Assembly (NCBI GenBank): GCA_029881255.1
Contig: JAOUMY010000008.1
Coordinates: forward strand, 1 to 64,000
DNA: 64,000 nt
Origin: Gammaproteobacteria bacterium
GTDB lineage: Bacteria > Pseudomonadota > Gammaproteobacteria > S012-40
Direction of reading: 5' to 3'
Below, in pieces: positions 16,584 through 49,869 of this stretch (positions are counted from its first letter, which is position 1; every line of letters begins with the position of its first letter). The notes beneath the pieces were generated by a model, which saw nothing but the letters and a program-made list of their open reading frames with translations, was not told the DNA's origin and did not search any database. A program made the translations under genes and the position numbers.

Positions 16584-17123
16584 ATGCCAAGAAGACTGAT
16601 TAGACGCTACTTACCCACGCCAGACAAACTACGACAAGCCAAAGGATTAGGTATCTTTGGCGATATTCTTTTCGAACCTAACATGTGGCACCTTAATCGC
16701 AAAAGTTTCAGCGGCGCCTTCGCGCTGGGAATGTTTTCGGCTTTTATTCCCGTTCCCTTTCAAATGCTCATCTCTGCGGCCGGGGCCTTAATATTCAAAG
16801 TCAATCTACCGCTTTCAGTGGCGTTGGTCTGGATTACCAATCCGATAACAATGCCGCCGATATTCTATTTCTGTTATCTTGTCGGTGCTTACGCGCTGGA
16901 TACCCCTGTTCAGGCTATCGATTTCGAACTGACATATGAATGGCTCAAAACAGAATTGTTGCGCATCTGGGAACCCTTTCTACTCGGTTGTTTCATTATG
17001 GGAGTAATCAGTTCAATAAGCTCCTATTTCGGTGCACGATTGTTCTGGCGTTACATCGTGGTAAAAAGCTGGGCAAATCGGAAACAGCGTCGTCTCGCCG
17101 CACAAAATGGCAATAAAGAATAA
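16584..17123 (+). CDS. DUF2062 membrane protein
   Basis: A 179-residue inner-membrane protein of the DUF2062 family: a basic N-terminus, the conserved LWHLNRKS-like segment (MWHLNRKSFSGAFALGMF), the FIPVPFQML and WITNPITMPPIFYFCYLVG motifs, and about three hydrophobic helices. The function is unknown. The ATG at 16584 is preferred over an in-frame TTG at 16566 inside the Smr gene; both are weakly supported. The 3' end overlaps the next lipoprotein gene by 17 bases, indicating an operon. Confidence 0.85.
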   Translation: MPRRLIRRYLPTPDKLRQAKGLGIFGDILFEPNMWHLNRKSFSGAFALGMFSAFIPVPFQMLISAAGALIFKVNLPLSVALVWITNPITMPPIFYFCYLVGAYALDTPVQAIDFELTYEWLKTELLRIWEPFLLGCFIMGVISSISSYFGARLFWRYIVVKSWANRKQRRLAAQNGNKE

Positions 17124-17919
17124 CTTTGCTGTTCTTCTGTGGGTATCGTTCTGCCTGCTGGTTACGGCATGCGACACTAAACCTAAACCGAATCTTTATC
17201 TTACAGATAATTCCTTGCTACATACTCCCTCTATAGGCGAGAGCATGGATTTTTCTCTTTTAGATAGTTCATCCAGTGTCTTTGAAGGCGCAAAAAATAT
17301 TCAGGTAAAAGACGGCCGAATACGATGGCTGGCGGATGACACCATAGAAAACATTCCCGTCGAAGTCACGGACATCGGTTATATCAATGAAGCATGGGAT
17401 GTTTCGATTCCCGGCATTCCAAGCAACCGGCTGTTATACCAGAACGAGGCTGGCGAATTGGTATTGTTAGCGATACGTAGTCACAGTAAGACTTACTGGG
17501 TACGCAACGATAACACAGGTGAATATGGTGCGACTTGGTTATCGCTCGCTGCCATCCATCCCGATAGCGATATTCTCGGCGACAATCTCAGTCTCATGAG
17601 TTGTCAAACAACACAATGCAGCGTGTCTGGAAATATTTTCTGGTCAACAACCTATGACTCCGTGGAAACGGCAGAGACTCCGTACGCCAATATCGAATCC
17701 CACCGTTTCACTCAGCGCCTGGAAATCAACATCAACAATGAGAACGAAAGTTCTTTCTTCAGTGTCTCAGAAAACTTGTGGGTCTATCCTCCCCTGGGCA
17801 TCGTGCAACGTTATATGCTGGGGACGTTCAGCAATGAATCGACAAGTATGCGCATAGATGTATTAGTGATGCTGAGAACGACGAATATTAAGCTTGAAGA
17901 AACGCCAGTTACCGAATAG
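17107..17919 (+). CDS. Putative lipoprotein of unknown function
   Basis: A 270-residue protein with a clear lipoprotein signal: a basic start, a hydrophobic core, and lipobox LVTAC with cysteine 22. The next residue is aspartate, which in the Lol system of enteric bacteria retains lipoproteins in the inner membrane. The mature part is mixed beta and polar, with two cysteines close together (MSCQTTQC) that could form a disulphide. I do not recognise a family. It overlaps the DUF2062 gene and converges, with a 7-base gap, on the MacB-like permease gene, whose transport system it might or might not serve. Confidence 0.75.
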   Translation: MAIKNNFAVLLWVSFCLLVTACDTKPKPNLYLTDNSLLHTPSIGESMDFSLLDSSSSVFEGAKNIQVKDGRIRWLADDTIENIPVEVTDIGYINEAWDVSIPGIPSNRLLYQNEAGELVLLAIRSHSKTYWVRNDNTGEYGATWLSLAAIHPDSDILGDNLSLMSCQTTQCSVSGNIFWSTTYDSVETAETPYANIESHRFTQRLEININNENESSFFSVSENLWVYPPLGIVQRYMLGTFSNESTSMRIDVLVMLRTTNIKLEETPVTE

Positions 17920-17926
17920 TTTTGTC

Positions 17927-19174
17927 TCAGTCAAATCGCAGCGCGTCGGCAGGCAACATATGTGACGCTCGTCTTGCGGGTCTTAAACCGGCAATTGTTG
18001 CTATGCCAATTGCCAACACCATAGACATGACCACATAAATCCAAGAAGGTATAAAGAGCAAACCCACCAATACATACACGGCAAGGGCAAATAATGCCGA
18101 TGTAAACAGCCCAAGCAAGGAACCCAAACTACCTACCACCAGCGACTCAAACAAAAACTGTCGCAATATATCTGAATTGCGAGCACCTATGGCCTTGCGA
18201 ATTCCAATTTCTCGCGTCCGTTCAGTAACCGATGTCGACATCGTATTGAAAATGCCGATTCCACCAACCAGTAGTGAAATCATTGCCGCCGAAATACCAA
18301 TTAAAGTGACAACACCGAGTATTTCTTCCGCGGTCCCAATCCACCCCTCCATAGTCTCCGACTGGTATTGAAAACGATTGCCCGTGGAACGCATCAACAT
18401 ATTTGTAACTTCGTTTACGGCTTGATGTATGAGCTTTTCGCTTTTCGCCTCAACCAATAAGGTATGGATGTCTTTCGATCCAAGTATGCTTTGATAGCTG
18501 GTATACGGTACCAGCATTCGGTTATTAATATCGTAGCCCTGAGTGGCACCCAGTGCTTCGAGAATAGAACGATCCTTATTCGCCAACACGCCAATCACGT
18601 TATAACGATGCCCGTCTACACGCAGGTGTCTTCCTATTGCGCCAGTTGCACTACCAAACAATTGCTCTGCAGTCTTGGGACCGATTACAGCAGCCATGTG
18701 ACGGGAAGTAATATCACGGCGATGGAAGCCTCTACCGGCAATAATTTTATCTCGATTGAGAGAAAGAAAATCCTCCCCTACTCCCTGCACGGCACTTTTG
18801 GTAAAACTGTTTGCGTATTGCAACTGCCGTTTCCAATCGCTGAGATAGACGGTCGGAGAGGCGCGCTCAATTGACGGGCAGCAGCCTTTGGCCAAAAGCT
18901 CGAAGTGTTCATTGTTAATGCCACTGCCCTGTCGAGTCGTTGATCCTGGAACCTGATCTTCCCAATGGCGATAAATCCAGATGGTGTTCAAACCATAGGT
19001 TTCGAATTCAGCAAAAATCTGCCGCCTACCGTTTTCGGCAATCATGCTCAAACAAATCACCGCGGCGACACCAACACAGACACCCAAAATACTTAGCCAG
19101 GTCTGCGTCTTTCGCTCCATCAAGGCGATCCAGGCCTGCTGAAACGCATGTAGTGATACGTGCGACGCCGCCAC
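17927..19174 (-). CDS. MacB-like ABC transporter permease
   Basis: A 415-residue permease of the MacB/FtsX type. It has one N-terminal transmembrane helix (WLSILGVCVGVAAVICLSM), a large periplasmic domain of about 220 residues, and three C-terminal helices beginning in VVTLIGISAAMISLLVGG. The conserved RTREIGIRKAIGA coupling segment and the terminal motif MLPADALRFD are present. MacB proteins work as mechanotransmitters driving export through TolC rather than passing substrate across the inner membrane. In E. coli MacB the ATPase is fused; here it is a separate upstream gene. The GTG start overlaps the ATPase stop by one base. Confidence 0.9.
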   Translation of the reverse strand: MAASHVSLHAFQQAWIALMERKTQTWLSILGVCVGVAAVICLSMIAENGRRQIFAEFETYGLNTIWIYRHWEDQVPGSTTRQGSGINNEHFELLAKGCCPSIERASPTVYLSDWKRQLQYANSFTKSAVQGVGEDFLSLNRDKIIAGRGFHRRDITSRHMAAVIGPKTAEQLFGSATGAIGRHLRVDGHRYNVIGVLANKDRSILEALGATQGYDINNRMLVPYTSYQSILGSKDIHTLLVEAKSEKLIHQAVNEVTNMLMRSTGNRFQYQSETMEGWIGTAEEILGVVTLIGISAAMISLLVGGIGIFNTMSTSVTERTREIGIRKAIGARNSDILRQFLFESLVVGSLGSLLGLFTSALFALAVYVLVGLLFIPSWIYVVMSMVLAIGIATIAGLRPARRASHMLPADALRFD

Positions 19175-19848
19175 TAATTACTGACCTCGTGTAATTTTCC
19201 CTTGTCTATAAACAACACACGGCTAGCGTGCCTGACTAGATCGGGATCATGCGTAACATATAGAATGGTTTTCCCGCCCTTATTCATCATGTCAAATAAC
19301 TCGATGATGTCGTTCGCAGTTCCTTTGTCCAGACTCCCCGTTGGTTCATCGGCAATGATGACGGGAGGATTGTTTACCAGAGCACGCGCTATGGCCGCCC
19401 GTTGTTGTTGTCCACCGGATAGTTGTCCAGGATGCCGTTGTTCGTATCCTCCCAAGCCAACAGCATTAAGTGCCGCGTATCCACGTTTACGACGAACCTC
19501 GTCAGAGATTCCCGCGTATATCATGGGAAGTTGCACGTTTTGCAATATTGTCATACGTGGAATGAGATTATAAGACTGAAAGACAAAACCAAAATTCTCG
19601 CGCCGAATACGGGCGAGCTCATCTTCGTTGTCATTGTATATAGACTGGTGATCGAGTCGATATTCACCGCTGGTAGGTTTATCGAGACAACCGATAATCG
19701 ACATCAGCGTTGATTTTCCCGCTCCAGAAGGGCCGGTAACTGCAATATAATCACCGCTTGAAATCGACAGACTTATCCTGTCGAGTACAGTGATTCGTTT
19801 ACGTGCAATCTGGTATTCCTTACTCAGATCTCGTAGCTCAATCATCAA
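19174..19848 (-). CDS. ABC transporter ATP-binding protein (MacB/LolD type)
   Basis: A 224-residue ATPase with Walker A GPSGAGKSTLM, Q-loop FVFQSYNLIPRMTIL, signature LSGGQQQRAAIARAL, Walker B VIIADEPTGSLD and the H-loop TILYVTHD. The closely spaced features and MacB/LolD-like sequence fit a type VII exporter. It lies 5 bases after the receiver-adaptor fusion gene and overlaps the permease gene by one base. The three genes form one operon encoding ATPase, permease and adaptor. No outer-membrane TolC-like gene is linked, so a chromosomal TolC elsewhere is likely. Confidence 0.93.
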   Translation of the reverse strand: MMIELRDLSKEYQIARKRITVLDRISLSISSGDYIAVTGPSGAGKSTLMSIIGCLDKPTSGEYRLDHQSIYNDNEDELARIRRENFGFVFQSYNLIPRMTILQNVQLPMIYAGISDEVRRKRGYAALNAVGLGGYEQRHPGQLSGGQQQRAAIARALVNNPPVIIADEPTGSLDKGTANDIIELFDMMNKGGKTILYVTHDPDLVRHASRVLFIDKGKLHEVSN

Positions 19849-19853
19849 ACAAC

Positions 19854-22397
19854 CTAGGGTTGAGGCAGGCTAATTTTCTGTCCTTCTTCCAATTGTTTAT
19901 TGCCTGGTAATAACACGCGTTGCCCAATGGATACGCCCTGTACAATTTCGATATGTGACAAACTTTGAATCCCGGTCTTGACTGGTACAAAATGCACACG
20001 ATCATTTAGCGACACGGTTACGTGTGGTTGTCCATCAACTTGTAGAATAGCCTCAATCGGAACCACCAGGGCTCGATTATTAGATGCCGTATAAATAGCT
20101 GCATCTACCTGTTGGCCGACCTTTAGATCCGGTGCCTCGCTACCCAATGAAACATGCACACTAACAAAATTACCACTATTGCGAGTTTCTGTCGTTCCAG
20201 AAATGCGAATGATTTTTTCCATCCAGGTTCTACCAGGATAGGCATCACTACTCATCTCCACTTGTTGACCCTGCACGAGTCCCGCGCTATCGGCGGCGTC
20301 GACACGCAACTCTGCTTCAGTATTACTGACATCTACCAGCGTTAACAATGGCTCAGGCGGTGCCAACCATTGTCCTTCCTGAGCTTCAAGTGAAGCAACC
20401 ATTCCGTCGAAGGGTGCTACGATAGCATGTCTTTCTACTTGTAGCTTGGCTTCGTTTAATTCTTCCTCTACCAATGACTGACGGGCGCTCTCCGTTTTCC
20501 AGTCGGTTTCAGCATCTTCGACCATTTGTCGCGATACGGCACCTTTTTCAAGTGCTCTTTGTAATCTTTCCAGGGTTTTTTGCGCCAAAGAAACTTTTTC
20601 TCGATTACTAATCAATTTTGCTTCGGCTTGATTGACTCGGCTACGGGCTTCCCTTGAATCCAGTTCCGCCAGCACAAGTCCTTTATTTACCGACTGACCC
20701 TCCCTTACTCTGACCTTGTCGATTTGTCCCGGAAAAAACGATGTCACATTAATCTTCTTACGGCTTATCACACGACCGGAAACCATAACTGACTCGTGTA
20801 ACGCCTGTGTTTCAACTGCGACAAAACCGACCTGCACCTGTTTTTGTTGTGAGGCGGTATACATCAATGCCGGTAAAATCAGAACGGCTGCTAGTATGGC
20901 CAGGAGATAATTACGAAATCTGGGACTGATATGCAGACTAAATGGCAACGACGGTGTCTTGAATGAAAATGACTTTTTACTTCCACCATCGTCTTTGTCT
21001 AATGCGCTGAGCAAATCCATTAACGGATTTTTTTCTCGCTTCTGTTCCGTTTGCTCGCCGAGTTTATCCTTTAGCCATTCCGGTTCACTGCCAGGTATGT
21101 CTTCGCTGCTGTCGACTGTTTTCTTTTTTGGAGTTTTCTTTTCTTTCTTTTTTTCGACCAGTTGTGGACTCGAAATCTCTATTGTATTCAAATTATTTGA
21201 ACGTTCAGCTTGTTCTTCCGCCTCTTCTTCCCGAAACAGGGCTTCAATTTCGTCCATAAAGGGATTAGTGTGCTCGGGATTTCGAAACTTGGGCACGACA
21301 GGCTCGGGATTTACTGGCTTTCCGCCAGATTGAGGCGTCTTTTCATTGCCTAACGGCTTGAGACTCAAATCGTCTACGCGATATTGATCTATGATTGCCT
21401 GGGAAACATTATTTTGTTGGCGTCGATTAGGAGCAGCAGATGCAACTTCATCTGGAGTAGAAAAAACTGCCCTTCCCTGTCGTTTCGGTTCACTTTCCGT
21501 AGGAGTACTAAGCGGCGGTGTTTTTTGTACATCAGCTTTCGTCTCGTTTTCCCGTCGGCCTGCCTCTAGCGAAGCGGCGGAGATTCTGTCTCTCTGAATT
21601 CTCGTTTCCGGTTGCTGGGGCAATTGTTCAGGTTCCCCGGCTAAGTCCATAGTCGGTATCGGTACGCTATTGGAATTTTCAGCCGGCGCATCGACGAGTG
21701 GAATTTCCGTGAGATGCAAATCATCCACCAATGGAATATCAACCTGACTGTTTATTGGTTGTATTTCTCGCGAGGTAAATTTTGTACTAATTTCGGGATT
21801 AACCAATGGCTCAACGATATCCATACCATTATCGCTTTTTGCCCCTTTGACGGGAATATCAGCTTCCACGCTTAACGTGGGTATCATGGCATCTTGTTGT
21901 TTGTCGATCTGAGTAGACAATTGATCCTTAAGTGAACGAAATACAACCGGCGTACTTTTTTCTGTTTTACTTACGGTATGTGAAGAATCAACAAAGACTC
22001 TCTCAATCGCATCACCCAAAATGTCCTCATCGAGCGGCTTAGTCAGAACGCGATTAGCGCCTATTTCGATCAGCTTGTCAGCCGTTTTCTGATCTGCTGC
22101 CCCGGTCACAACAATGATAGGAATGCGGGATTTCACTGGATGGCCACATAGACGAATCAAGCGAATCAAATCATCACCATTGACGCCGTCTCCGTCCGTA
22201 GTGATCATCAGATCGGTAATCAACAAGTCGAAGTTCTTGTTCAACACCGACTCAAGCGCCACATCCGCTCCAGAGAAATGTTCGACCAGATATCCACGTT
22301 TTTCTAACATGCGTCGCGTTACGAATGCGGATGTGCGACTATCGTCGACATAGCATATGTGTTTTGCCTGTGTGTGTTTCGCCGTCTGCTCTGTCAT
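19854..22397 (-). CDS. Response-regulator receiver fused to periplasmic adaptor (MacA/HlyD-like)
   Basis: An 847-residue protein with an unusual architecture. Residues about 12-131 are a complete receiver domain: acidic pair D18/D19, phosphoacceptor D62, T98 and K120 in VLTKP. Residues about 135-490 are a polar, low-complexity linker with acidic and lysine-rich tracts. One transmembrane helix follows near 494-514 (YLLAILAAVLILPALMY). The rest is a membrane-fusion/periplasmic adaptor: lipoyl-like halves (VSGRVISRKKINV and IVAPFDGMVASLEAQEG), a coiled-coil hairpin between them, and beta-barrel and membrane-proximal domains. The receiver would face the cytoplasm and the adaptor the periplasm. 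It is first in an operon with the MacB-type ATPase and permease. No histidine kinase is linked. Confidence 0.9.
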   Translation of the reverse strand: MTEQTAKHTQAKHICYVDDSRTSAFVTRRMLEKRGYLVEHFSGADVALESVLNKNFDLLITDLMITTDGDGVNGDDLIRLIRLCGHPVKSRIPIIVVTGAADQKTADKLIEIGANRVLTKPLDEDILGDAIERVFVDSSHTVSKTEKSTPVVFRSLKDQLSTQIDKQQDAMIPTLSVEADIPVKGAKSDNGMDIVEPLVNPEISTKFTSREIQPINSQVDIPLVDDLHLTEIPLVDAPAENSNSVPIPTMDLAGEPEQLPQQPETRIQRDRISAASLEAGRRENETKADVQKTPPLSTPTESEPKRQGRAVFSTPDEVASAAPNRRQQNNVSQAIIDQYRVDDLSLKPLGNEKTPQSGGKPVNPEPVVPKFRNPEHTNPFMDEIEALFREEEAEEQAERSNNLNTIEISSPQLVEKKKEKKTPKKKTVDSSEDIPGSEPEWLKDKLGEQTEQKREKNPLMDLLSALDKDDGGSKKSFSFKTPSLPFSLHISPRFRNYLLAILAAVLILPALMYTASQQKQVQVGFVAVETQALHESVMVSGRVISRKKINVTSFFPGQIDKVRVREGQSVNKGLVLAELDSREARSRVNQAEAKLISNREKVSLAQKTLERLQRALEKGAVSRQMVEDAETDWKTESARQSLVEEELNEAKLQVERHAIVAPFDGMVASLEAQEGQWLAPPEPLLTLVDVSNTEAELRVDAADSAGLVQGQQVEMSSDAYPGRTWMEKIIRISGTTETRNSGNFVSVHVSLGSEAPDLKVGQQVDAAIYTASNNRALVVPIEAILQVDGQPHVTVSLNDRVHFVPVKTGIQSLSHIEIVQGVSIGQRVLLPGNKQLEEGQKISLPQP

Positions 22398-22445
22398 CTA
22401 ATAAATTGCTTTCTTCGCTATATACTTTCTGAGCGATGTGGATAC

Positions 22446-22464
22446 GTGTGCAATTCTTGCACAC
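22446..22464. promoter_or_regulatory. Perfect 19-bp inverted repeat, candidate operator
   Basis: GTGTGCAA, three bases, then TTGCACAC: perfect 8-bp arms. It sits 49 bases upstream of the receiver-adaptor gene in the 255-base divergent region shared with the acyl-CoA ligase gene. No T-run follows, so an operator for a dimeric regulator is more likely than a terminator. Confidence 0.45.
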
Positions 22465-22652
22465 TCCCTCCGGAATCCCCAGTTATTATAGAGTCGGATA
22501 AACCCCTTGCTTTATCGACTATTTAAATCAATACTTTAGACTTCGATTTAAGAGGGATGCTCAATAAAAAAAGTAAATTTTGCAGTCTATTTGACGATCA
22601 ATAATATGCTGCCTGCCTAGGACAGGGGCGTTAATCAGGGGTAGATGACACC

Positions 22653-24452
22653 ATGACATGGACTTTGGACAAAATCTCGCCAGAAAGCGCGACAAACCTC
22701 CACGGACTTCTACTAGAGCGCGCAAAACGCTCTACAAATTCAGTCGCTTATAAATATTTTGATAGCACCGACCAGTGCTGGAAGGAATATACCTGGGCGC
22801 AAGTCGTGGACATTGTAACTCACTGGGCCACGGCGCTTTCCCAACTTCAACTCAACATAGGCGAACGTGTAGGCGTCATGCTTCCCAATGGCCCGGAATG
22901 GGTGTTCTTCGAGCAGGCGGCGGCACGGGCCGGGCTCGTCAGTGTCCCCTTATACCCCAACGACCGACCGGACAATGTCAGCCATATCGTCAATGAGTCT
23001 GAAATTCGCGTCCTGTTTTTCTGGGGACCGCTTCAATGGGATACCATTCGTGCGGCAAAAAACGACTTTGAAAATACACCTGTATTCATTAGCTCTCAGC
23101 CGGTGAACGACCCCGAAGTAACGCACAAATCTGAGTGGCTGAAGAAGGCTAACGGCCTTCCCTCGCTAGCACCTGTTAAGGTCAGCAGCAAAGAGTTGGC
23201 GACGATAGTGTATACCTCAGGCACCACCGGTCGCCCGAAAGGGGTAATGTTGAGCCACGATAACATTATCAAAAACGCCTTTTTCGGCGTCCATTCTGTG
23301 GACGTTTACAAGGAAGACCTGTTCTTATCTTTTCTTCCTCTGTCGCACACGCTCGAACGGACTGTTGGATATTATTTGCCTATGCTTTGTGGCGCTTCGG
23401 TCGCCTATTGTCGTTCTATTCCAGAATTGGCCGAGGATTTACTGAGTATCAAACCAACGGTGTTGATATCAGTTCCGCGCATTTTCGAGAGAGTATACGG
23501 AAAGATTAAAACCGGTTTGCAGGAAAAATCTCCTGTCGCGCAAAAACTCTTTGCCATGGCAATCTCTGTCGGCTGGGAAAAGTTTCTCGCCGAACAAGGT
23601 CGTGGTTCGCGTTCACTAAGGCAAGTATTGTGGCCTCTGTTGAATAAGCTGGTGGCTTCAAAAATAGCTGAAAAACTCGGTGGCCGATTACGTTTCGCCA
23701 TTAGTGGTGGGGCCCCACTACCCAAGGAAATTGCTGAGACCTTTATTGGTTTGGGTATACAAATCCTGCAAGGATATGGACTAACTGAGTCTAGCCCGGT
23801 AATCAGTGTAAATAAAATGGACAGCAACATCCCCCACAGTATTGGACAAGCCCTGCATGGGGTAAAGGTACGCTTGTCCAAAGATGGCGAGCTACAAACC
23901 TCAAGCGAATGCGTAATGATGGGATACTGGAAGCGTGAAGACGCTACTAAAGAGACATTTACTGAGGACGGCTGGTTGCGCACTGGCGATTTGGCACGCA
24001 TCGACGAAAGCAACCACATTTATATTACCGGGCGTCTGAAAGAAATCATGGTCATGTCTAACGGTGAAAAGATTCCACCTGTCGATATCGAGATGGCGAT
24101 CACGCTAGACCCCTTATTTGAGCAGGCCATGGTAATTGGTGAAGGTAAACCCTATTTGTCCGCCATCATCGTTTTAAACCCCGAAGCCTGGCCAGCATAT
24201 GCAGAATCATTGGGCTTATCCGCCACTACGTCAGGTGTTTTAAAAGACAAGACTTTGCTAAAGGAAATCAAGAAACGCGTGGATGAGCGCATGTCTGAAT
24301 TTCCAGGGTACGCGCAAATACATCAAATCACTTTATCTGACGAAGTCTGGAGCGACCAGAATTTCCTATTGACAGCCAGCCTGAAAATGAACCGAAAAGT
24401 TATTAGCGAACGTTTTGCTCAGGAAATCGCTGCAATGTATTCTGGGCACTAA
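22653..24452 (+). CDS. Long-chain acyl-CoA synthetase (AMP-forming)
   Basis: A 599-residue adenylate-forming ligase of the FadD15/long-chain acyl-CoA ligase group, activating a fatty acid to acyl-AMP and then acyl-CoA. Core motifs are TIVYTSGTTGRPKGVMLSH (phosphate-binding loop), GYGLTESSPVISV, and the hinge/AMP-binding segment WLRTGDLARIDESNHIYITG followed by RLKEIMVMSNGEKIPP. It is monocistronic, divergent from the receiver-adaptor operon and closed by a strong terminator. A role in fatty-acid uptake, degradation or recycling is inferred from the family. Confidence 0.92.
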   Translation: MTWTLDKISPESATNLHGLLLERAKRSTNSVAYKYFDSTDQCWKEYTWAQVVDIVTHWATALSQLQLNIGERVGVMLPNGPEWVFFEQAAARAGLVSVPLYPNDRPDNVSHIVNESEIRVLFFWGPLQWDTIRAAKNDFENTPVFISSQPVNDPEVTHKSEWLKKANGLPSLAPVKVSSKELATIVYTSGTTGRPKGVMLSHDNIIKNAFFGVHSVDVYKEDLFLSFLPLSHTLERTVGYYLPMLCGASVAYCRSIPELAEDLLSIKPTVLISVPRIFERVYGKIKTGLQEKSPVAQKLFAMAISVGWEKFLAEQGRGSRSLRQVLWPLLNKLVASKIAEKLGGRLRFAISGGAPLPKEIAETFIGLGIQILQGYGLTESSPVISVNKMDSNIPHSIGQALHGVKVRLSKDGELQTSSECVMMGYWKREDATKETFTEDGWLRTGDLARIDESNHIYITGRLKEIMVMSNGEKIPPVDIEMAITLDPLFEQAMVIGEGKPYLSAIIVLNPEAWPAYAESLGLSATTSGVLKDKTLLKEIKKRVDERMSEFPGYAQIHQITLSDEVWSDQNFLLTASLKMNRKVISERFAQEIAAMYSGH

Positions 24453-38681: not shown

Positions 38682-39821
38682 ATGTCAGAACACCGACCAA
38701 CCGTACTGTTTGTAGAAGATGCGCCCGACGTGCGTGATATCGCTCGCATCTTTTTGAACAAGTCTGGATACGACGTAGTTGAAAAAGAAGACGCTGAAAG
38801 TGCGTGGGAATATTTACAGAATAACCACCAGCACGTCGACGTGGCATTACTCGATATTCTGCTACCTGGATTCGATGGTTATGAACTCTGTAGTCGAATT
38901 AAATCCCATGATCAAATGAAAGACCTACCTGTTGTCTTTGCCTCATCGCTCACAGATTTGGAAGAAAAACTAAAAGGCTATGCCTGTGGCGGAGACGACT
39001 ACGTAACTAAGCCTGTGTTATACGAAGAGTTACAGCAAAAAATTAAGCGCATTCTTCAAATTAAAAACACCACTGTTGAACTGAAACAAAGGGCTTCTGC
39101 TTCAACTAGCGCCGCACTGGAAGCGATGAATTACTCGTCTGACCTCGGCCAGATTATCTCCTTTTATAAGGCCAGTCTTGATGTACAAAACTACCAGGAA
39201 CTTGCCCAAAAAGTCTTCGAAGTCACCAATAATCTCGAACTCAGAACCTGCATGACTTTTTTTGTCGAAGGCGATGCGCTTTCCTATTCATCTAACGGTA
39301 AAGTAACGCCATTGGAAATCAACATTATGGAAATGACGCGCGGGGGTAAACGATTTGTAGATTTTGGGCAACGCACCATAATTACCCACAAAAATTTTAC
39401 TTTGTTGATAAAAAACATGCCTGTTGATCGCCCGTCTCGCTACGGTGTATTAAAGGATACCTTAGGTGCCTTGGGTGACGCGTTAGAGGCTCGCGTACAT
39501 TCGCTACAGCAAAACAATCTCGAAAATAAACGCAATGAATTAATCAATTTTGTCCAGCTATCCACGCTGGAAGCGGAAAGTACTTTCGAGCAGATTTATA
39601 CGGAAATTAACAGCGCCATGGAGACCATGAATAGCGCTGTAGAAGATGCCTTTATTAGCATCGGACTAACCGAACAACAGGAACAACATTTTCGCGATAT
39701 AGTGAAGGCACTGATAGCCCAATCTGAAAGCGCGATGGCTAAAGGTGATCGGTTACTTTCAGCGTTTGATCAAATTTCAAGTGCGCTTAGGAAGAGCTTG
39801 TCCATCAAGTCCGGTTCATGA
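38682..39821 (+). CDS. Response regulator with uncharacterised C-terminal domain
   Basis: A 379-residue protein. The N-terminal receiver (about residues 5-125) has E12/D13, phosphoacceptor D58, S88 and K110 (YVTKP), so it should be phosphorylated. The remaining 250 residues have no DNA-binding, cyclase or phosphodiesterase motif. They comprise a central alpha/beta region that may be GAF-like and a long helical C-terminus (coiled-coil-like from about residue 280). It is monocistronic between recN and fur and converges on fur with 3 bases between stops. No kinase is linked. A protein-protein output is the most likely role; the partner is unknown. Confidence 0.85.
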   Translation: MSEHRPTVLFVEDAPDVRDIARIFLNKSGYDVVEKEDAESAWEYLQNNHQHVDVALLDILLPGFDGYELCSRIKSHDQMKDLPVVFASSLTDLEEKLKGYACGGDDYVTKPVLYEELQQKIKRILQIKNTTVELKQRASASTSAALEAMNYSSDLGQIISFYKASLDVQNYQELAQKVFEVTNNLELRTCMTFFVEGDALSYSSNGKVTPLEINIMEMTRGGKRFVDFGQRTIITHKNFTLLIKNMPVDRPSRYGVLKDTLGALGDALEARVHSLQQNNLENKRNELINFVQLSTLEAESTFEQIYTEINSAMETMNSAVEDAFISIGLTEQQEQHFRDIVKALIAQSESAMAKGDRLLSAFDQISSALRKSLSIKSGS

Positions 39822-39824: not shown

Positions 39825-40241
39825 CTATTTCTTACTCTGACACTGCCCACAAAGGCCATATATATAAAGGCAATGATCCGTCATTTCAAATCCTGCCTGC
39901 TGCGCAATTTCACGCTGGCGTTTTTCGATAATTTCGTCCACAAACTCCTCAACCTTACCGCATTGCAAACATACGATATGATCGTGATGCTCGCCAGTAT
40001 TGAGCTCAAAAATAGCCCTACCGTCCTCAAAACGGTGTCGACACACAATTCCGGCTTCCTCGAACTGGGTCAACACGCGGTATATTGTCGCAAGCCCAAT
40101 ATCTTCACCGTTTTCTTTCAATCGGGTGTAAATGTCTTCTGCACTGAAGTGTTGTTCGGTGTTTTCCTCCAGCAACTCAAGAATTTTGAGCCTGGGGGTC
40201 GTCACTTTCAAACCGACATCTTTTAGATTAGGAATTTGCAT
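39825..40241 (-). CDS. fur: Ferric uptake regulator Fur
   Basis: A 138-residue Fur repressor. It has a winged helix (VTTPRLKILELLEEN, then GLATIYRVLTQFEEAGIV), the metal-binding cluster GEHHDHIVCLQCGKVEEF, and the C-terminal structural zinc pair CGQC. With Fe2+ it represses iron-uptake genes. I start at the ATG at 40241. A GTG at 40253 would add four residues. A promoter with an extended -10 and a 19-bp dyad lies upstream. It is divergent from bamE, a conserved arrangement in gammaproteobacteria. Confidence 0.97.
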   Translation of the reverse strand: MQIPNLKDVGLKVTTPRLKILELLEENTEQHFSAEDIYTRLKENGEDIGLATIYRVLTQFEEAGIVCRHRFEDGRAIFELNTGEHHDHIVCLQCGKVEEFVDEIIEKRQREIAQQAGFEMTDHCLYIYGLCGQCQSKK

Positions 40242-40293
40242 GCCAATAGCCACTTATTTGACGTTGATATTGCTGATTGGAAATTGTGGTGCG

Positions 40294-40329
40294 ACTATAC
40301 CACAAAGCATCTAATTCAGATAAAATTAG
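40294..40329 (-). promoter_or_regulatory. fur promoter with Fur-box-like dyad
   Basis: On the minus strand there is an extended -10 box, TGGTATAGT (40294-40302). A 19-bp dyad, CTAATT-N7-AATTAG (40311-40329), overlaps its -35 region. The dyad is A+T-rich and of the right length for a Fur box but is not a close match to the E. coli consensus. Fur autoregulation is a reasonable inference. Confidence 0.45.
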
Positions 40330-40358
40330 CCGTCTTCAAAATACCCTTATGGAATACA

Positions 40359-40676
40359 ATGACTAAATCCACTCTATTGATATTCATTTTTTTATTTATC
40401 TTTTCAAGCGCTTGCACCATGCATCGCATTGATGTTCAACAAGGCAACGTCATCACCAAGGAAATGGTTGAACAGATTAAAACCGGCATGACCAAACGCC
40501 AGGTTACCTTCGTGATGGGTTCGCCTATGATACAAGATCCCTTTCACAGCGCCCGTTGGGACTATGTTTTCACCATGCAACCCGGCAATAAGCGCAAGAT
40601 TGCAGAATACAAACGGGTCACACTCATTTTTGAAGATGACAAGGTGGCGAAGATTGATGTGGTGAATGTTAATTAG
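40359..40676 (+). CDS. bamE: Outer membrane assembly lipoprotein BamE
   Basis: A 105-residue lipoprotein (SmpA/OmlA). The signal ends in lipobox FSSAC with cysteine 19 followed by threonine, so outer-membrane sorting is expected. The mature part shows the BamE core: QGNVITKEMVEQIKTGMTKRQV, FVMGSPMIQDPFHSARWDYVF and a C-terminal strand VTLIFEDDKVAKID. It belongs to the Bam complex that inserts outer-membrane beta-barrels. The ATG at 40359 is chosen because it starts the signal peptide; a longer in-frame start overlapping fur makes no sense biologically. Confidence 0.95.
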   Translation: MTKSTLLIFIFLFIFSSACTMHRIDVQQGNVITKEMVEQIKTGMTKRQVTFVMGSPMIQDPFHSARWDYVFTMQPGNKRKIAEYKRVTLIFEDDKVAKIDVVNVN

Positions 40677-41160
40677 GTAGGTGTCCGGTATTGACTTCGT
40701 GTTTGCTGATAACTGCAATTAACAGATAGCAAACCTACTATATAAACTAACATGATGGGCTTCATTTCACGCGTATAATTTGACCGGACCGGAAGACATC
40801 AAAGATTTTCTGTTTCTTTTTCTTCTTCTCCCCGGTAATTCGCGATAGTCAGTCCCTTTGCGCTTTTCTTCTGCACTCCCACCAGGTTTTCAAGAAACAT
40901 TAAATAAGGATATTGAATTTCTCGAACTATAGACCGGTGTGTTTAGTCAGTTCGGAAGCCCGAAATTGGAACAATCATCAGTAGTAAATATATCGGTCGA
41001 AATGAAGTGTCGTTAGACGGTTTTGCCATTTTATAGGTACTACTAGGCGACTCCTTTAAAAGTCATTTTGACACAAACAGTTGAATACTCGATACTTGGT
41101 AATCGTGTGAACAATGTTAGTTATAGATTGCAGATTTGGTAAATTCGGAGCCTACATTCC
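40677..41160. other. Intergenic stretch without recognisable gene
   Basis: These 484 bases mark the change from core genes to the glycosyltransferase island. They contain one long-looped dyad (GTTTGCT at 40701-40707 with AGCAAAC at 40728-40734) that has no T-run. A stretch near 40,800-40,910 encodes only short lysine/glutamate-rich peptides on the minus strand, with no start supported. I see no tRNA or transposase remnant. Confidence 0.5.
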
Positions 41161-41772
41161 ATGGAACTCATAAACCCTGACATTGAAAAAGATCTGGCTA
41201 TAGAAAAACCGTTGAAAATTGAGCTTGGAAGCGCTGGCAAATATCGCGAGGGCTACTATGGCCTCGACCATCTCAAAATGGACGGTGTAGACATCGTCGC
41301 AGACTTAAATAAACCATTGGAGAAAATTCCAGAGAATTCTGTTAGTCATATCTATAGTCGCCATGCATTGGAACATGTAATTGAGTTTCTACCATTAATG
41401 AAAGAATTGCATCGGATAGCACGGTCTGGATGTATTTTAAATATTGTTGTTCCTCATTTTTCCAATCCATACTACTACTCAGATCCAACTCACGTGCGTT
41501 TCTTTGGGTTATATACAATGAACTATTTTGTATCTCCTGAAAAACAGCCTTTCCCAAAACGACTCGTTCCCGCGTTCTATACGGATACTCGTTACGAAAT
41601 TGATACAATAAAGATTTCATTTTATCGAATGAACATTTTTGACCGAGTTACCGTCCCACTTCTTCGAAAAATTGTGAATCTGAATTTTGCGATGCAAGAT
41701 TTCTATGAACGCCGTCTGTGCCGACTCTTCCCTGCATCCGAGATTTCCTATACGCTCAGAGTCGCAAAATAG
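41161..41772 (+). CDS. SAM-dependent methyltransferase
   Basis: A 203-residue type 11-like methyltransferase. The SAM-binding loop is IELGSAGKYREGYYGLD, followed by the acidic strand VDIVADLNKPL, the segment HIYSRHALEHVIEFLPLMKELHRI and a VVPHFSNPYYYSDPTHVRFF motif found in methyltransferases linked to polysaccharide genes. GGAG occurs about 10 bases before the ATG. It opens the island with the glycosyltransferases, so its substrate may be a sugar or glycan terminus. The target is not identifiable. Confidence 0.8.
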   Translation: MELINPDIEKDLAIEKPLKIELGSAGKYREGYYGLDHLKMDGVDIVADLNKPLEKIPENSVSHIYSRHALEHVIEFLPLMKELHRIARSGCILNIVVPHFSNPYYYSDPTHVRFFGLYTMNYFVSPEKQPFPKRLVPAFYTDTRYEIDTIKISFYRMNIFDRVTVPLLRKIVNLNFAMQDFYERRLCRLFPASEISYTLRVAK

Positions 41773-41924
41773 TAAAATATTTCACTTGAATAATAACTAT
41801 TCCGTATATTTTTAATCCTAATGCAATATTATGGCTCAGTTTTTGTAATCACACTCTTTAAGCCGACTTTATTAACTCTAAATATGAACTACATAACGCA
41901 ATTTTCTAGCTCAACACTCTTACA

Positions 41925-42977
41925 ATGAAAGACCAAAAAAAGAAAATACTTGTCTGTATTGACAAGATACACAATCTTAATAGCGGACTAGGTCGGGTGT
42001 CTATTGAATATGCAATGGAACTGATTAACAACAACGAGTATGATTATACCTTTCTTGTACCGAAGAACTATCCAGAGAACGACTTCTTTGGGCACGGCAT
42101 AGTGAGACTTACGGCATGGAAACGCCAGTTTTCTGGTTACATGAAAGAATTCGATCTCGTTCATTTGCTGTACCAATCACCGAGTTATAGTTTTCGTCAT
42201 GCGCAAAAGTCGCTAATGACGGTACACGACATAAACTTCATGCATGTCAAAAATACTGGAAAACGGTTAAAATATAAGCGAAAAATGCAGCAGATTATTG
42301 ATGCCGTTGATTCGCTCTGTTTTATATCTGAATTCGCCAAAAACGATACAAATAGTAATCTTAACTTTGATAGATCAAAAAGACAGCGCGTCATTTACAA
42401 CGGAGTTACCGATTCCTGTATCACCACTTCTAAACCTGCCTGGTGTCCAGTCAATTTTCTATTTTCAATCGGCATTTTCACAGTCAAAAAGAATTTTCAC
42501 ACCTTAATACCACTCTTAAAGAGCCTACCTGATACATATACTTTAGTTATTGCTGGTGATTGCAATACTGCTTATGGCAATCAAATCAAAAAAGATATAG
42601 CCGACTCCGGACTCGATAAGCGCGTAATTCTTCCTGGAATGATCTCTGAGGAAGAAAAGAACTATCTGTATACACATTGCGAAGCGTTTTTATTCCCATC
42701 AATAGCCGAGGGTTTTGGTTTACCTGTTATAGAGGCTATGAAATGTGGAAAGCCGGTTTTTTGCTCTGACCGCACCAGCCTAAAAGAAATCGGGAATGAG
42801 TATGCCTATTTCTGGAAAAACTTCGAACCCAGTGAAATGCGAGAAATATTCGCAAAAGGTATGGCTGACTTCGACAACATAAAGGCCGAAAAGGAAATCA
42901 AATATGCCAACTCATTTACATGGAAAAAGAACGTTGATCGCTACGTCGAACTCTATAAAGAATTAATTAATGAGTAA
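41925..42977 (+). CDS. GT4-family glycosyltransferase
   Basis: A 350-residue GT-B glycosyltransferase. The C-terminal half contains the typical donor-binding motif SIAEGFGLPVIEAMKCGKPV, with the two glutamates of the E-x7-E motif, and VILPGMISEEEKNYLYTHC. The N-terminal half includes LVHLLYQSPSYSFRHAQKS. It uses a nucleotide-sugar donor at the cytoplasmic face, probably for a surface polysaccharide or lipid-linked glycan. It overlaps the next gene by 8 bases, so the three plus-strand glycosyltransferase genes are coupled. Confidence 0.88.
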   Translation: MKDQKKKILVCIDKIHNLNSGLGRVSIEYAMELINNNEYDYTFLVPKNYPENDFFGHGIVRLTAWKRQFSGYMKEFDLVHLLYQSPSYSFRHAQKSLMTVHDINFMHVKNTGKRLKYKRKMQQIIDAVDSLCFISEFAKNDTNSNLNFDRSKRQRVIYNGVTDSCITTSKPAWCPVNFLFSIGIFTVKKNFHTLIPLLKSLPDTYTLVIAGDCNTAYGNQIKKDIADSGLDKRVILPGMISEEEKNYLYTHCEAFLFPSIAEGFGLPVIEAMKCGKPVFCSDRTSLKEIGNEYAYFWKNFEPSEMREIFAKGMADFDNIKAEKEIKYANSFTWKKNVDRYVELYKELINE

Positions 42978-44034
42978 GTTTAAAAATATCGTCATATGTT
43001 GCCCCGGAGACGTGCTGATTAGCGGCGGTGTCAACAGCCTTCACAATCTGTGCAGAACACTATCGCTTATTGGTTACGATGCATCCATGTATTACCTCAA
43101 TCCTAAAGAAGAAATCATACAAAGTGATTACTATTTGGCCTATAAAGTCAAAAGATGCACAGATTTAGCTGACGACCCTGAAACACTTTTTGTTGTACCC
43201 GAGACCCTGGTACCGTTTTTGTTGCAGTTTCACCATGCTGGAAAGATGATTTATTGGCTCGGCTTGTTGTTCTACTTTAAAACGCCAAGCTGGAGCCCCC
43301 CTTTCAATATTAAGTTTTTCAGAACTTTCATAAAGTGTAAATCGTATTTTGGCTATTCTTCAGGGGCCATAGAAAACATGCAGCGAAAATTGAACGAGTA
43401 TGCCAAGTCACATCTCGACATATGGAATGGGGAAGTATTTCACCTTAGTAATTCTTATTTTGTCGGCGATTACTGCCGCGAAAAAGGCGCAAAGACCTGG
43501 GTTCTTCACAACCCAATTCGGGACGAGTTTTACACCGAGCAAGTTCTTCCACTAAGAGAGAAACTGATACTATTCGGGCCACACACCCAACCGGCCTGGA
43601 TAAGTAGAGCTAAACGCCTTCTACCTGGCTTTCAGATTATAAAGTTGAGGAAACTCCCTTCATCCACTGTTTTCGACCTTATGTCCAAAGCAATGGTATT
43701 CGTAGAGATTGGGATTTTTTCTGGAAGAGATAGAATGCCGCGAGAAGCGGCCATGCGTGGCTGTGTTGTGTTAGTCAACAACCGGGGTACTGCTGGCAAC
43801 GACAAAGACTACTTACTCGAGTCTAATTACAGAATAGATGAAAATAAAGTTGACCAAATATTGGAAACACTATCGGTTATCGTGAATAACTATAACACTC
43901 ATTTTGAAAAACAGTCATCATTCAGAAACAGTTTGATATCGGAAAGAAATAATTTCAGGATCAACACTGACAACATTTTTTCCTCATTGTTGAAAATACG
44001 TGATCCCAATGAAAGCAGAAAGCATGAACAATAG
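42970..44034 (+). CDS. Putative GT-B glycosyltransferase
   Basis: A 354-residue protein with an N-terminal Rossmann-like start (IVICCPGDVLISGGVNSLHN, resembling acceptor-domain loops) and a C-terminal part containing MPREAAMRGCVVLVNNRG and NDKDYLL. The same pattern is seen in divergent GT-B enzymes of polysaccharide clusters. The E-x7-E motif is not evident, so the assignment rests on fold-like features and on position between two other glycosyltransferase genes. It overlaps the upstream gene by 8 bases and the downstream gene by about 11. Confidence 0.68.
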   Translation: MSKFKNIVICCPGDVLISGGVNSLHNLCRTLSLIGYDASMYYLNPKEEIIQSDYYLAYKVKRCTDLADDPETLFVVPETLVPFLLQFHHAGKMIYWLGLLFYFKTPSWSPPFNIKFFRTFIKCKSYFGYSSGAIENMQRKLNEYAKSHLDIWNGEVFHLSNSYFVGDYCREKGAKTWVLHNPIRDEFYTEQVLPLREKLILFGPHTQPAWISRAKRLLPGFQIIKLRKLPSSTVFDLMSKAMVFVEIGIFSGRDRMPREAAMRGCVVLVNNRGTAGNDKDYLLESNYRIDENKVDQILETLSVIVNNYNTHFEKQSSFRNSLISERNNFRINTDNIFSSLLKIRDPNESRKHEQ

Positions 44035-44968
44035 AAATATTAAATTAGGACTATTTTTCACTAATACCAACAGGGACTATAACAAGAGTGCTGCATCGAC
44101 CTGGATACGAATATGGCAGATGATCGATCCATACAAGGCTCTTGGTGTCGAAGTCAGTTTCAACAACTTTTTCAAGAAATACGACGTCGCCATCGTATAC
44201 AGAAAGTCCAAGCCAAAATACTATTACATTCTTAAGTATCTAAAACTCATCAGTAAAACAGTCTATTTTGACACCTGTATTAATTTGTTCGAAAAAAGTT
44301 GGGAGATTTCCGATGAAAGGTTGGAATATGCCCACAAGATCGCGAAAACAGCAGATGGCATCATCTGTGCCTCGAGCCAGATTGCGCGTTTTTCGGCTCC
44401 ATACGCGAATAGCGTTTACACAATGGAAGATCCTATAAATTTAGACCACTTTTCCACACTGAAGGGAGATATCAATTTTGATAAGCCACTTTTTGGCTGG
44501 TCAGGTGTCGCGCAAAAATCGGTATTTCTGAATCGTTACGCAAGCGAAATAGACAAACGTATACACCTGATTACCGACAATACCATAACAGATGAACAAC
44601 TTGAGTTTGAATATATTTACACCCAGTGGCGATACGAAACATTTCCGAAAGAACTCATCAAATGCGATATTGCGCTCTTACCAAGAGATCTAAATTCTTC
44701 CTACAATTTAGGACATAGTGCATTTAAGGCTTTAGTCTTTGCCGTCTTAGGCATCCCAATTATCGCCGATAAAATTCCTTCATATATCGACCTGACACAG
44801 TACTATGACGGCATTGTATTTTTAGATGACTATGATAATAGTATAGAAAAATGCATCGAAGCTCTCAGATTACGCAGCCTCGATACAACGAAGGTCAGAA
44901 AACACTATTCGCTTGAGAACCAGGCTAAAATGCAGGTTGAATATTTTCTTCAACGGTTGAACCATTAA
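44024..44968 (+). CDS. Putative glycosyltransferase, divergent GT-B
   Basis: A 314-residue protein. It has an N-terminal segment LGLFFTNTNRDYNKSAASTW, a mid region TADGIICASSQIARFSAPY followed by NSVYTMEDPINL, a typical acceptor-to-donor domain transition of GT-B enzymes, and a C-terminal FKALVFAVLGIPIIADKIPS segment resembling the donor-binding region. I chose the ATG at 44024, which overlaps the previous stop; in-frame starts at 44000 and 44009 would lengthen the overlap. It ends 13 bases from the convergent glycosyltransferase gene. Confidence 0.65.
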   Translation: MNNRNIKLGLFFTNTNRDYNKSAASTWIRIWQMIDPYKALGVEVSFNNFFKKYDVAIVYRKSKPKYYYILKYLKLISKTVYFDTCINLFEKSWEISDERLEYAHKIAKTADGIICASSQIARFSAPYANSVYTMEDPINLDHFSTLKGDINFDKPLFGWSGVAQKSVFLNRYASEIDKRIHLITDNTITDEQLEFEYIYTQWRYETFPKELIKCDIALLPRDLNSSYNLGHSAFKALVFAVLGIPIIADKIPSYIDLTQYYDGIVFLDDYDNSIEKCIEALRLRSLDTTKVRKHYSLENQAKMQVEYFLQRLNH

Positions 44969-44981
44969 TGGAGAGACAGTA

Positions 44982-46037
44982 TCAACTACAGAATTTGAGA
45001 TATTTTTCTTGCTGATATTTAAAGCTCCACTTTTCGTTAGTGTATGCATTTACAGGTGGCGTCACCTTTCCCTGGCTTATCTGAGTCAGAACATCGATAA
45101 TACTATCGCTTCGATAAAATACCGAATTTTCACAAAAATCTTTAAATTCTCTAAACTTCTCATGGCTCAGCATAGGAATATTGTAGGCATACGCCAGATT
45201 GAACGCACCTGAAATCTTGATTCTCAAGAATTCATCAAAGTCACTTTGTACAGGATGGATTGCTGGCATAATATAGTCACTATTCTTGATATAAGAATGA
45301 AACAAATCATCATCAATATAGTAGTCAAACGCCCTGATCACATGACTCATATTGTTCTCGTTTATCCAGTCGAGTATCTCTAATCCTCGCCCCGACTCTC
45401 TCTTGCATCTTCCCAGGACAATAATCTTGAGTTTTGAAGGATAACTTTCTGCATTTAGAATAGCATCGAATATACCCGGATAGTCCTTTCTGTGTGATAG
45501 CACTTCGCCTGGGATAGTTACCCATATTTCATTTTTAGGTTTATGCAAATCTATATCTCTATATGATGGATAGAATATCGGATAAAATGACTCGAGACTA
45601 AGATTGGGAAGTGAACCTTTCTGTGACTCTTCTAAATCGTCGCTTAGCACAAAGTAATTTTTAATTTTCCTCGAAATCATCTTTTGAGAAAACCCGGAGC
45701 GAAGTTTATTTACGTTGTGGGCTATGCCGACAAATTTTATTTCCTTTGGATATGGCAGCAAACACAATGATCGAACGATATTTCCATGAGCAGTATTGAA
45801 TATTACGCTGCGGGGCTTAAGTGATACAATTTTACTTCTCACCTTCAACAAGTCTGTCCAACGATGATCATCAAAATCGTAATAGGTATAACTATCAAAT
45901 CCAAACGCCTCTACCCTGGACTTAAGCCTAATATCCCCAATGAAATGCACCTGGTTTCCGGCTTCTTTCAGAAAGAGCACTTGGGAGTATATGCATTCCG
46001 CATGTGAGGATGTTTCAACAATTATATAATTTGGCAT
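44982..46037 (-). CDS. Putative glycosyltransferase on opposite strand
   Basis: A 351-residue protein beginning YIIVETSSHAECIYSQVLFL and containing KIVSLKPRSVIFNTAHGNIV, KFVGIAHNVNKLRSGF and IKNYFVLSDDLEES. The mid and C-terminal parts contain NEIWVTIPGEVLSHRKDYPG and LKIIVLGRCKRESGRGLEIL, consistent with a two-Rossmann GT-B enzyme. The C-terminal IKISGAFNLAYAYNIPMLSH segment replaces the usual donor motif. I start at the ATG at 46037; an upstream in-frame start at 46073 is also possible. It is convergent with the other three. Confidence 0.62.
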   Translation of the reverse strand: MPNYIIVETSSHAECIYSQVLFLKEAGNQVHFIGDIRLKSRVEAFGFDSYTYYDFDDHRWTDLLKVRSKIVSLKPRSVIFNTAHGNIVRSLCLLPYPKEIKFVGIAHNVNKLRSGFSQKMISRKIKNYFVLSDDLEESQKGSLPNLSLESFYPIFYPSYRDIDLHKPKNEIWVTIPGEVLSHRKDYPGIFDAILNAESYPSKLKIIVLGRCKRESGRGLEILDWINENNMSHVIRAFDYYIDDDLFHSYIKNSDYIMPAIHPVQSDFDEFLRIKISGAFNLAYAYNIPMLSHEKFREFKDFCENSVFYRSDSIIDVLTQISQGKVTPPVNAYTNEKWSFKYQQEKYLKFCS

Positions 46038-46073
46038 GAGCAGTTTTTTAATCGGCCGAATTCTAGCTAGCAA

Positions 46074-46718
46074 AAATAGCAGACTGCGTGATTTTTATCA
46101 AAATTATTTCACCCATTCAAATATAATTACATGGCGTAAACGTTTACATTACCCATCTCAATATTTTCTCTATCTCTACTTATTTTTTGCACATTGACCA
46201 CTTTGCACCACTTTGAGTTGTAAAATATTTATTTCGAACTAAAATCATCAATAGACTCCAATTATAATTGAATTTTTTGACTTTTTTTCTCTAAATACTT
46301 TTCATGATATTAAAACCTTTTCTCTCGTAGTTTCAAATAAGGCATTCACTTTTTAAATAATCACATACTCAATTTGCAATCAATTATTTTTAGACCACAT
46401 AATCTCGCTTCAGTTATAATTCACTTCGTCAGAAATTATTATTGACGAATTTCCTTCTACTTATTAAGCTACCAAAACTCTAGCCATTCCCCTGACGTTT
46501 TGACATCTTTCTAGAAAAGTACTTTATTGCGAACAGTTCTAACTCCGAATGTATTAGCCACTTTCATCCGCCATCTTTGTAGTTTCTCCATTGAAAACCA
46601 AGAGCTAACAAGTGCGCGCACATCTTGTCCATATAGAAGTCCGTTGACTAGCCACAAAACAGAAAAACCGCTATTATTTGCCAAATTCAAATAATTATTA
46701 CCAATACCCGGACGTCAC
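46074..46718. other. A+T-rich intergenic stretch without gene
   Basis: These 645 bases are visibly A+T-rich, with many T-runs, and have no supported coding sequence on either strand. They hold a perfect 12-bp palindrome (46136-46147, listed separately). The low-complexity sequence would suit H-NS-like silencing of an acquired island; that is inference. No tRNA, attachment site or terminal repeat is evident. Confidence 0.5.
46136..46147. promoter_or_regulatory. Palindrome resembling a LacI/GalR-family operator
   Basis: GTAAACGTTTAC is a perfect 12-bp palindrome with the central CG typical of LacI/GalR operators. It lies about 100 bases upstream of the minus-strand glycosyltransferase start. 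No LacI-family gene is in the window, so this is only a candidate. Confidence 0.3.
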
Positions 46719-47426: not shown

Positions 47427-47501
47427 ACATATCCTCGATTCAACCGGCAAATCTACAAGATTGTAGTCAAGTACATGTTTATTAACTAAAGTGGAAAATG
47501 A

Positions 47502-47960: not shown

Positions 47961-48009
47961 CAACTGGTATTCACGAAGTCTCAGAAAATGCGAATTGTAA
48001 ACACATACA

Positions 48010-49868: not shown

Positions 49869-49869
49869 G

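Follow-up and report, generated by a model that had tools for sequence, protein, structure and literature searches.

The prevailing view is that tripartite pumps are regulated chiefly through the amount of protein that is made. In the MacAB pump, the adaptor MacA functions as a hexamer, and removal of its cytoplasmic region or of its transmembrane helix is reported to compromise stimulation of the MacB ATPase and to prevent MacAB-mediated resistance (PMC5985334), so that the pump's activity depends in part on this cytoplasmic end of MacA. The cytoplasmic domain of another envelope protein, Alg44, is described as essential for alginate synthesis (PMC3815931). Here we describe a gene in a 64,000-nucleotide stretch of gammaproteobacterial DNA (contig JAOUMY010000008.1, assembly GCA_029881255.1; the whole stretch is called the window, and its genome G000) that joins a two-component receiver domain to a periplasmic adaptor in a single protein, beside genes for a MacB-type ATP-binding cassette (ABC) exporter. 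Judged from comparative sequence analysis, this receiver-adaptor protein is probably a membrane-tethered response regulator whose output is the assembly, activity or placement of the adaptor, in most cases, though not exclusively, for a MacB-type exporter.

A first-pass annotation of the window had placed the gene correctly at 19854-22397; the strand, which it did not state, is minus (Table 1). The frame is a single open reading frame (ORF) of 847 codons with no internal stops and no break near the linker, and the domain order given in that annotation was recovered throughout. Pfam places Response_reg (PF00072) at residues 14-131 (62.4 bits, cut-off 30.2), the AlphaFold2 model shows a (beta-alpha)5 fold at 13-143, and the residues D18, D19, D62, T98 and K120 are all present, as in a canonical receiver. 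About 350 polar residues, mostly disordered in the model, separate the end of the receiver from one transmembrane helix (494-516), and Pfam, NCBIfam and AlphaFold2 agree on the MacA/HlyD-like adaptor that follows. The adaptor is matched by HlyD_D23 (533-737, 61.5 bits, cut-off 30) and HlyD_3 (659-761), and falls within the resistance-nodulation-division (RND)/MacA-type adaptor family TIGR01730 (525-843, 181.5 bits, cut-off 94.9); with the MacA equivalog NF008606 it scores 80.9 bits versus a cut-off of 342. The MacA structures 5nik and 9qgy are among its best sequence-profile matches (E about 1e-39).

The AlphaFold2 model was built from nine sequences and has a mean predicted local distance difference test score (pLDDT) of 63 and a predicted template modelling score of 0.35; residues 140-383 and 398-491 have a pLDDT below 50, a helix (380-401) lies between these two stretches, and the adaptor carries a helical hairpin at 582-656. 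Among the 50 structural matches listed (VIA-align), those to the receiver have Z scores of 19.8-21.0 over 114-132 residues, the best being 1nxo (Z 21.0, 116 residues aligned, root-mean-square deviation 1.0). Five of the 50 are MexC/AcrA-type adaptors (Z 20.2-21.5, 319-342 residues aligned, deviation 4.4-5.0 for four and 13.5 for one), headed by the MexC-like 9j3d_D (Z 21.5, 320 aligned, 4.4); MacA is absent from these 50, from which nothing is concluded. A comparison with PHROGs returned six families, every one of unknown function.

The two halves appear to be made and kept as one protein. Ratios of nonsynonymous to synonymous substitution (dN/dS) were estimated with a simple Nei-Gojobori-type script for 15 pairs of fusions, two of which gave no receiver value (saturated). 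In the linker the ratio is below 1 in all 13 pairs with a finite estimate (0.18-0.85), which indicates that the fusion frame is translated through. Values for the receiver (0.015-0.22) lie below those for the adaptor (0.05-0.27) in 13 of 13 finite pairs, and the adaptor lies below the linker where both are finite. Mean identity among 31 proteins (G005 excluded) follows the same order, with 0.635 in the receiver, 0.510 in the adaptor and 0.288 in the linker. The receiver is the most constrained part of the protein and is under strong purifying selection. In addition, receiver and adaptor distances are correlated (r 0.856; 0 of 2000 permutations as high): the two domains diverged jointly. When five genomes were searched with the window receiver, fused receivers were 44-50% identical to it and the others listed at E 1e-8 at most 31%. 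An internal start giving a free adaptor was considered and rejected, as none of nine candidate starts between codons 300 and 520 is preceded by a ribosome-site-like motif.

Nor is the fusion private to the window genome. Receiver-adaptor ORFs number 38 and come from five families (f1, f37, f64, f101, f128) and 36 genomes of Gammaproteobacteria; of the 44 adaptor ORFs that score above 150 bits at the loci analysed, these 38 include a receiver. The order of the window genome contains one family, with 13 genomes, seven of which have the ORF in the equivalent position, next to an acyl-CoA ligase-like gene; six of these seven keep the phospho-acceptor aspartate, which is lost in G009. Likewise, the adaptor occurs in 23 of 24 genomes of family f64 (15 of 15 of good quality), with the receiver in the same ORF at 22 of 23 loci; the remaining locus, in G767, is cut by the contig start, shows no receiver and stands outside the 38. 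Of 369 evenly drawn genomes of the class, at least 14 match the adaptor with an E value of 1e-50 or lower, a lower bound since just two best candidates per genome were scored: ten are fused (G000, G005, G048, G075, G112, G139, G190, G207, G310, G327) and four unfused (G004, G033, G268, G363). In a phylum sample of 398 genomes, scored in the same way, G000 was the sole match, which says little about other classes because the rows shown were all of one class. Neither the order of the window genome nor that of G310 contains any family other than the one searched. No cultured host was found among the fusion-bearing genomes; eight of the records are labelled Gammaproteobacteria bacterium, seven being marked as metagenome-assembled genomes and one as 'genome assembly', and one is labelled groundwater. 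G190 carries a fusion and neighbouring genes that closely resemble their counterparts in G772, which belongs to a different family, a case in which transfer and mis-binning are indistinguishable.

A loss of the receiver residues in all orthologues would, by the first-pass annotation's own account, have spoken against its reading; in the canonical receivers they are instead nearly invariant. Among 32 complete canonical receivers (that of G190 is cut and stands outside this set), the phospho-acceptor aspartate is kept in 31, across three families, the acid pair and the lysine in all 32, and the threonine in 30, with alanine in G010 and valine in G003. The first helix of the receiver, near the start of which kinases usually bind, opens with SRT[SA] in 31 of the 32 (SKTS in G327). 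The distance from receiver to adaptor, transmembrane helix included, is 170-464 residues in the canonical proteins, and the linker holds clade-specific juxtamembrane motifs; in that of the window, NPLMDLLSALD, residues L459, L462 and L463 are invariant among six aligned family members. Five orthologues (L031, L032, L033, L034, L035) have a conserved N-terminal stretch like [SA][HQ]VKLVYDAEKG ahead of the receiver, which the window protein lacks.

These features suggest how such a protein might work. A histidine kinase or acetyl phosphate would phosphorylate D62 in the cytoplasm. Receivers commonly dimerise on phosphorylation, and the phosphorylated receiver could alter the grouping of adaptor subunits, or the contact of the cytoplasmic end with an ATPase or kinase, and thereby determine whether the exporter is joined, stimulated or recruited by its adaptor. 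A linker of such length would allow the receiver to meet partners in the cytoplasm without the adaptor leaving its place in the envelope. Where a lineage lacks the MacB-type pump, the retained receiver-adaptor protein would have to serve another partner.

The pump genes themselves are closely tied to the fusion in the window, where ATPase and permease lie directly downstream on the same strand, in keeping with the operon first described. The ATPase ORF opens 5 bases past the fusion stop, at a TTG that is followed by an ATG, and at its other end it has one base in common with the permease ORF. By Pfam scores (MacB_PCD 110 bits and FtsX 69 bits in the permease, ABC_tran 116 bits in the ATPase) they encode a MacB-type exporter. 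A promoter and terminator scan of window positions 17000-23000 gave no excess over shuffled sequence. Both genes adjoin 19 of the 38 fusions, that is, 19 of the 35 whose neighbouring place is readable; in G768 and G048 the ATPase was detected by tblastn only. Of the other 19 fusions, one has an ATPase at the contig end and three are unreadable (the contigs of G006, G005 and G779 end before the pump-gene position).

The remaining 15 have neither gene, and with them begin the observations that weigh against the reading of the protein as a phosphorylation-controlled partner of an exporter. One of the 15, G139, has only 1.2 kilobases (kb) visible past the stop. A permease profile built from 12 operons, which finds its own kind at 629-709 bits in eight control genomes, found nothing close in 13 of 13 pump-less genomes (G048 being outside this search): the best score was 246 bits, in G139, eight gave 217-227 bits and four had none at E 1e-60. 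Eight of these assemblies are at least 90% complete (G075, G756, G758, G760, G761, G772, G190, G139); the absence is less sure in the other five because they are 67-87% complete. The receiver-adaptor protein is kept where the usual pump is not found, and this is the main result against a simple gated-exporter picture. Second, five divergent fusion proteins have 12 receivers, none of which has the aspartate: six in tandem in one G048 protein, pairs in another G048 protein and in G139, and single ones in the second copy of G010 and in G009. The six-receiver protein stands beside a MacB-type pump. Third, G327 has asparagine at the phospho-site of a receiver that is otherwise well kept. Finally, 15 fusion loci of families other than f64 are readable, that of the window among them, and phmmer (E 0.01) detects in none of them a relative of the PhoQ-like kinase described below; other kinase types are not excluded there, because phmmer also missed a hybrid kinase at locus L039 that Pfam detects. 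The first-pass proposal of a phosphorylation-gated exporter thus stands in part: control of the adaptor by phosphorylation is the best-supported idea, and the gating of an exporter as a general function is limited by the pump-less fusions, the aspartate-less side branch and G327.

Loss of the aspartate does not go with loss of the pump, a link that was considered and rejected. Ten of 12 readable receivers in pump-less genomes keep the residue (G012, G075, G756-G758, G760, G761, G770, G772, G773), and receiver dN/dS is similarly low in pump-less pairs (0.018 for G772/G773, 0.051 for G075/G757). G327 and the six-receiver protein of G048 (G048a) show the reverse, with a pump, no aspartate and frames still open; pump and aspartate are both missing for G009, G139 and the second copies in G010 and G048. 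On the adaptor tree, the presence of the pump switches seven times. In G773 (L114:7734-11265, contig C46), an intact receiver-adaptor gene is followed by an 81-residue ORF with ABC ATPase motifs and then by a HlyD-like gene, which looks like a decayed pump operon.

It is conceivable, though we consider it unlikely, that the receiver serves placement rather than control, docking the adaptor, phosphorylated or not, to a cytoplasmic partner or cell site, with transport ungated and the pump an optional client. The persistence of canonical receivers in those ten pump-less cases, the long and variable receiver-adaptor distance, which suits tethering, and the juxtamembrane motifs all fit such a role; placement alone leaves unexplained both the tight operon with ATPase and permease at 19 fusions and the near-constant phospho-site. 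Pseudo-receivers elsewhere act as binding or oligomerising domains, and the receiver might similarly be a rigid protein-binding or oligomerising module that works without phosphorylation. The divergent fusions and G327 speak for this, as their aspartate-less frames remain open and two of them (G048a, G327) have a pump, but the conservation of the aspartate across the canonical receivers of three families and the strong constraint on the whole domain make it improbable as a general account.

There is also a slim chance that the signal runs inward, with the adaptor sensing the periplasm (substrate or pump state) and altering the receiver as a phosphate sink or kinase partner, so that the protein reports rather than controls. 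The fusion's persistence without a pump and its place next to a PhoP/PhoQ-like pair in one family agree with this, as does the statement that BceAB-type permeases, the last four transmembrane helices of which are MacB-like, work with a two-component system (PMC5985334); against it, no gene related to the PhoQ-like kinase stands next to the fusion in the family of the window genome, and Pfam shows no sensory domain beyond the adaptor. An artefact, whether an overlooked frame break between two separate genes or a false join in the assembly, has no evidence in its favour and can be dismissed, since the identical fusion recurs in 38 ORFs from 36 assemblies, its linker is under coding constraint and no internal ribosome site is seen.

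Control of the adaptor by a membrane-tethered receiver remains the likeliest reading, and the neighbours of the fusion bear on its possible phosphate donor. In family f64, each of the 17 readable loci (17 of 17) has a gene for a PhoQ-like kinase on the strand of the fusion, 0.4-2.2 kb upstream of it; at the remaining six the contig ends within 2.1 kb. PhoQ is the best NCBIfam model for the three kinases tested (202-230 bits versus an equivalog cut-off of 497), and PhoP for the one regulator tested (227.6 bits versus 336). The presence of this regulator-kinase pair just upstream does not support the first-pass suggestion that the fusion replaces transcriptional control. In Salmonella, MacAB is described as being under PhoPQ transcriptional control (PMC7446830, PMC5985334), and an earlier study cited in these papers concluded that PhoP/PhoQ represses it. 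Since MacAB is itself regulated in this way, the association of the receiver-adaptor protein with a PhoPQ-type signal may, by analogy, be old. We did not adopt the linked kinase as a sure donor, as the window's family has no relative of it and SRT[SA] is the same in families with and without it. In G009, where the receiver is degenerate, a hybrid kinase of receiver-PAS-PAS-HisKA-HATPase layout and a stand-alone receiver lie about 3.4-5.8 kb upstream (L039:38-2429, contig C130). At 14 loci, belonging to f64 and f101, a gene for a kelch-repeat protein stands upstream in the opposite orientation.

An adaptor tree of 53 sequences, in which G767 was counted as fused and with a pump, needs two changes between fused and unfused states. 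This fits one gain and one loss of the receiver, or two gains; the root is unsure because of long branches and an unclean outgroup. Taken together, the data allow a bolder reading, which we offer tentatively and with some doubt: the fusions may form a DNA-independent, trans-envelope class of response regulators in which a two-component phosphorelay directly switches an adaptor. The receiver-adaptor protein would be the conserved unit, a proposal made mainly because it is kept where the usual pump is not found, and, having outlived several independent losses of the MacB-type exporter, it would control interchangeable partners. In a side branch, receivers would have multiplied (up to six) and become phosphate-independent pseudo-receivers, some of them with a rhodanese domain added. 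In that branch, a 1554-amino-acid (aa) protein (L036:6306-10970, G048 contig C34) has the six pseudo-receivers and the adaptor and adjoins the ATPase and permease genes, and proteins of G010 (L037:5175-7685, contig C54) and G139 (L085:1165-4281, contig C66) each combine pseudo-receiver, transmembrane helix, adaptor and C-terminal rhodanese, with no pump genes seen adjacent.

Table 1. Coordinates of the receiver-adaptor gene, its parts and its neighbours in the window.
Feature	Position	Strand	Evidence or remarks
Receiver-adaptor fusion gene, 847 aa	19854..22397	-	ATG start at 22397, stop 19854-19856
Receiver domain, residues 12-143	21969..22364	-	D18/D19 acid pair, D62 phospho-acceptor (codon 22212-22214), T98, K120
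Polar linker, residues 144-493	20919..21968	-	Mostly pLDDT under 50
Juxtamembrane motif NPLMDLLSALD, residues 457-467	20997..21029	-	Short helix in model
Single transmembrane helix, residues 494-516	20850..20918	-	AlphaFold2 model and hydrophobic stretch
Periplasmic adaptor, residues 520-847, helical hairpin 582-656	19857..20840	-	Profiles, AlphaFold2 model, structural matches
MacB/LolD-type ABC ATPase, 224 aa	19174..19848	-	Pfam, NCBIfam
MacB-type permease, 415 aa, MacB_PCD and FtsX, without fused ATPase	17927..19174	-	Pfam, NCBIfam
Lipoprotein-like protein, convergent with permease	17107..17919	+	No Pfam match
Divergent AMP-binding (acyl-CoA ligase-like) gene	22653..24452	+	Synteny marker; related genes adjoin the fusion at seven loci in the family of the window genome

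The lipoprotein-like protein falls into no recognised protein family; relatives of it at this position occur in two families. Those with 23-26% identity occupy the same place in G003, G010 and G012, the last beside a pump-less fusion, and a profile-related family (probability 97.9%, E 5e-13) is found at this position in G112, G327 and G778. Elsewhere in the window genome (L087, contig C18), genes for an unfused relative, including adaptor, ATPase, permease and outer membrane factor, stand beside thioesterase, AMP-binding/carrier and ketosynthase genes, which suggests, but no more, that small secreted metabolites are substrates of such pumps. In the window itself, a second receiver gene (38682-39821) encodes a receiver at residues 8-122 followed by about 250 residues without a Pfam family. 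Positions 40000-48000 form a low-GC island (0.385-0.40 versus about 0.47) with a group 1 glycosyltransferase gene (41925-42977) and several ORFs without a Pfam match, and positions 48010-64000 hold a type VI secretion cluster with DUF2169, VgrG-like, sigma-54 activator, TssF, VipB and ImpA/VasJ genes.

The first-pass annotation knew of no described example of this fusion, and searches aimed at it in an open-licence library, a set without subscription papers and domain databases, likewise gave none; a census covering every genome could show it already catalogued as an unnamed architecture. If the proposed role is right, a phospho-receiver within an adaptor would give a two-component system direct and rapid access to a trans-envelope machine. 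The need for the cytoplasmic end and transmembrane helix of MacA in MacB stimulation is described as structurally unclear (PMC5985334), and the fusion would offer a handle on how that end acts. The idea can be put to the test with the members that nature supplies, which include canonical, asparagine-substituted, pump-less and pseudo-receiver forms.

Several known systems share parts of this design. Like MacA, the fusion has an adaptor fold with an N-terminal transmembrane helix and a MacB-type partner; to our knowledge, MacA has no receiver. ATPase and permease are fused in MacB, whereas here they are two genes. Like PleD, which is among the structural matches, and other response regulators with non-DNA outputs, the protein has an N-terminal canonical receiver and a C-terminal effector, but its effector sits across the inner membrane. 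Rv1747, a putative ABC exporter with an FHA domain that is modulated by the kinase PknF, similarly has phosphorylation-linked modules (PMC3908365, PMC5549992); there, a Ser/Thr kinase is involved and the ABC protein carries the module, which in the fusion belongs to a trans-envelope adaptor. The closest working analogue is Alg44, in which a cytoplasmic signal-receiving domain, a transmembrane region and, in the periplasm, a MexA-like adaptor domain are likewise joined in a single chain (PMC3815931). The fusion is not a member of the Alg44 family, as Pfam gives no PilZ match in it to E 0.1. Alg44 binds cyclic di-GMP through PilZ and serves a polysaccharide synthase, whereas the protein described here has a phospho-receiver, a long linker and, often, a MacB-type exporter as its neighbour.

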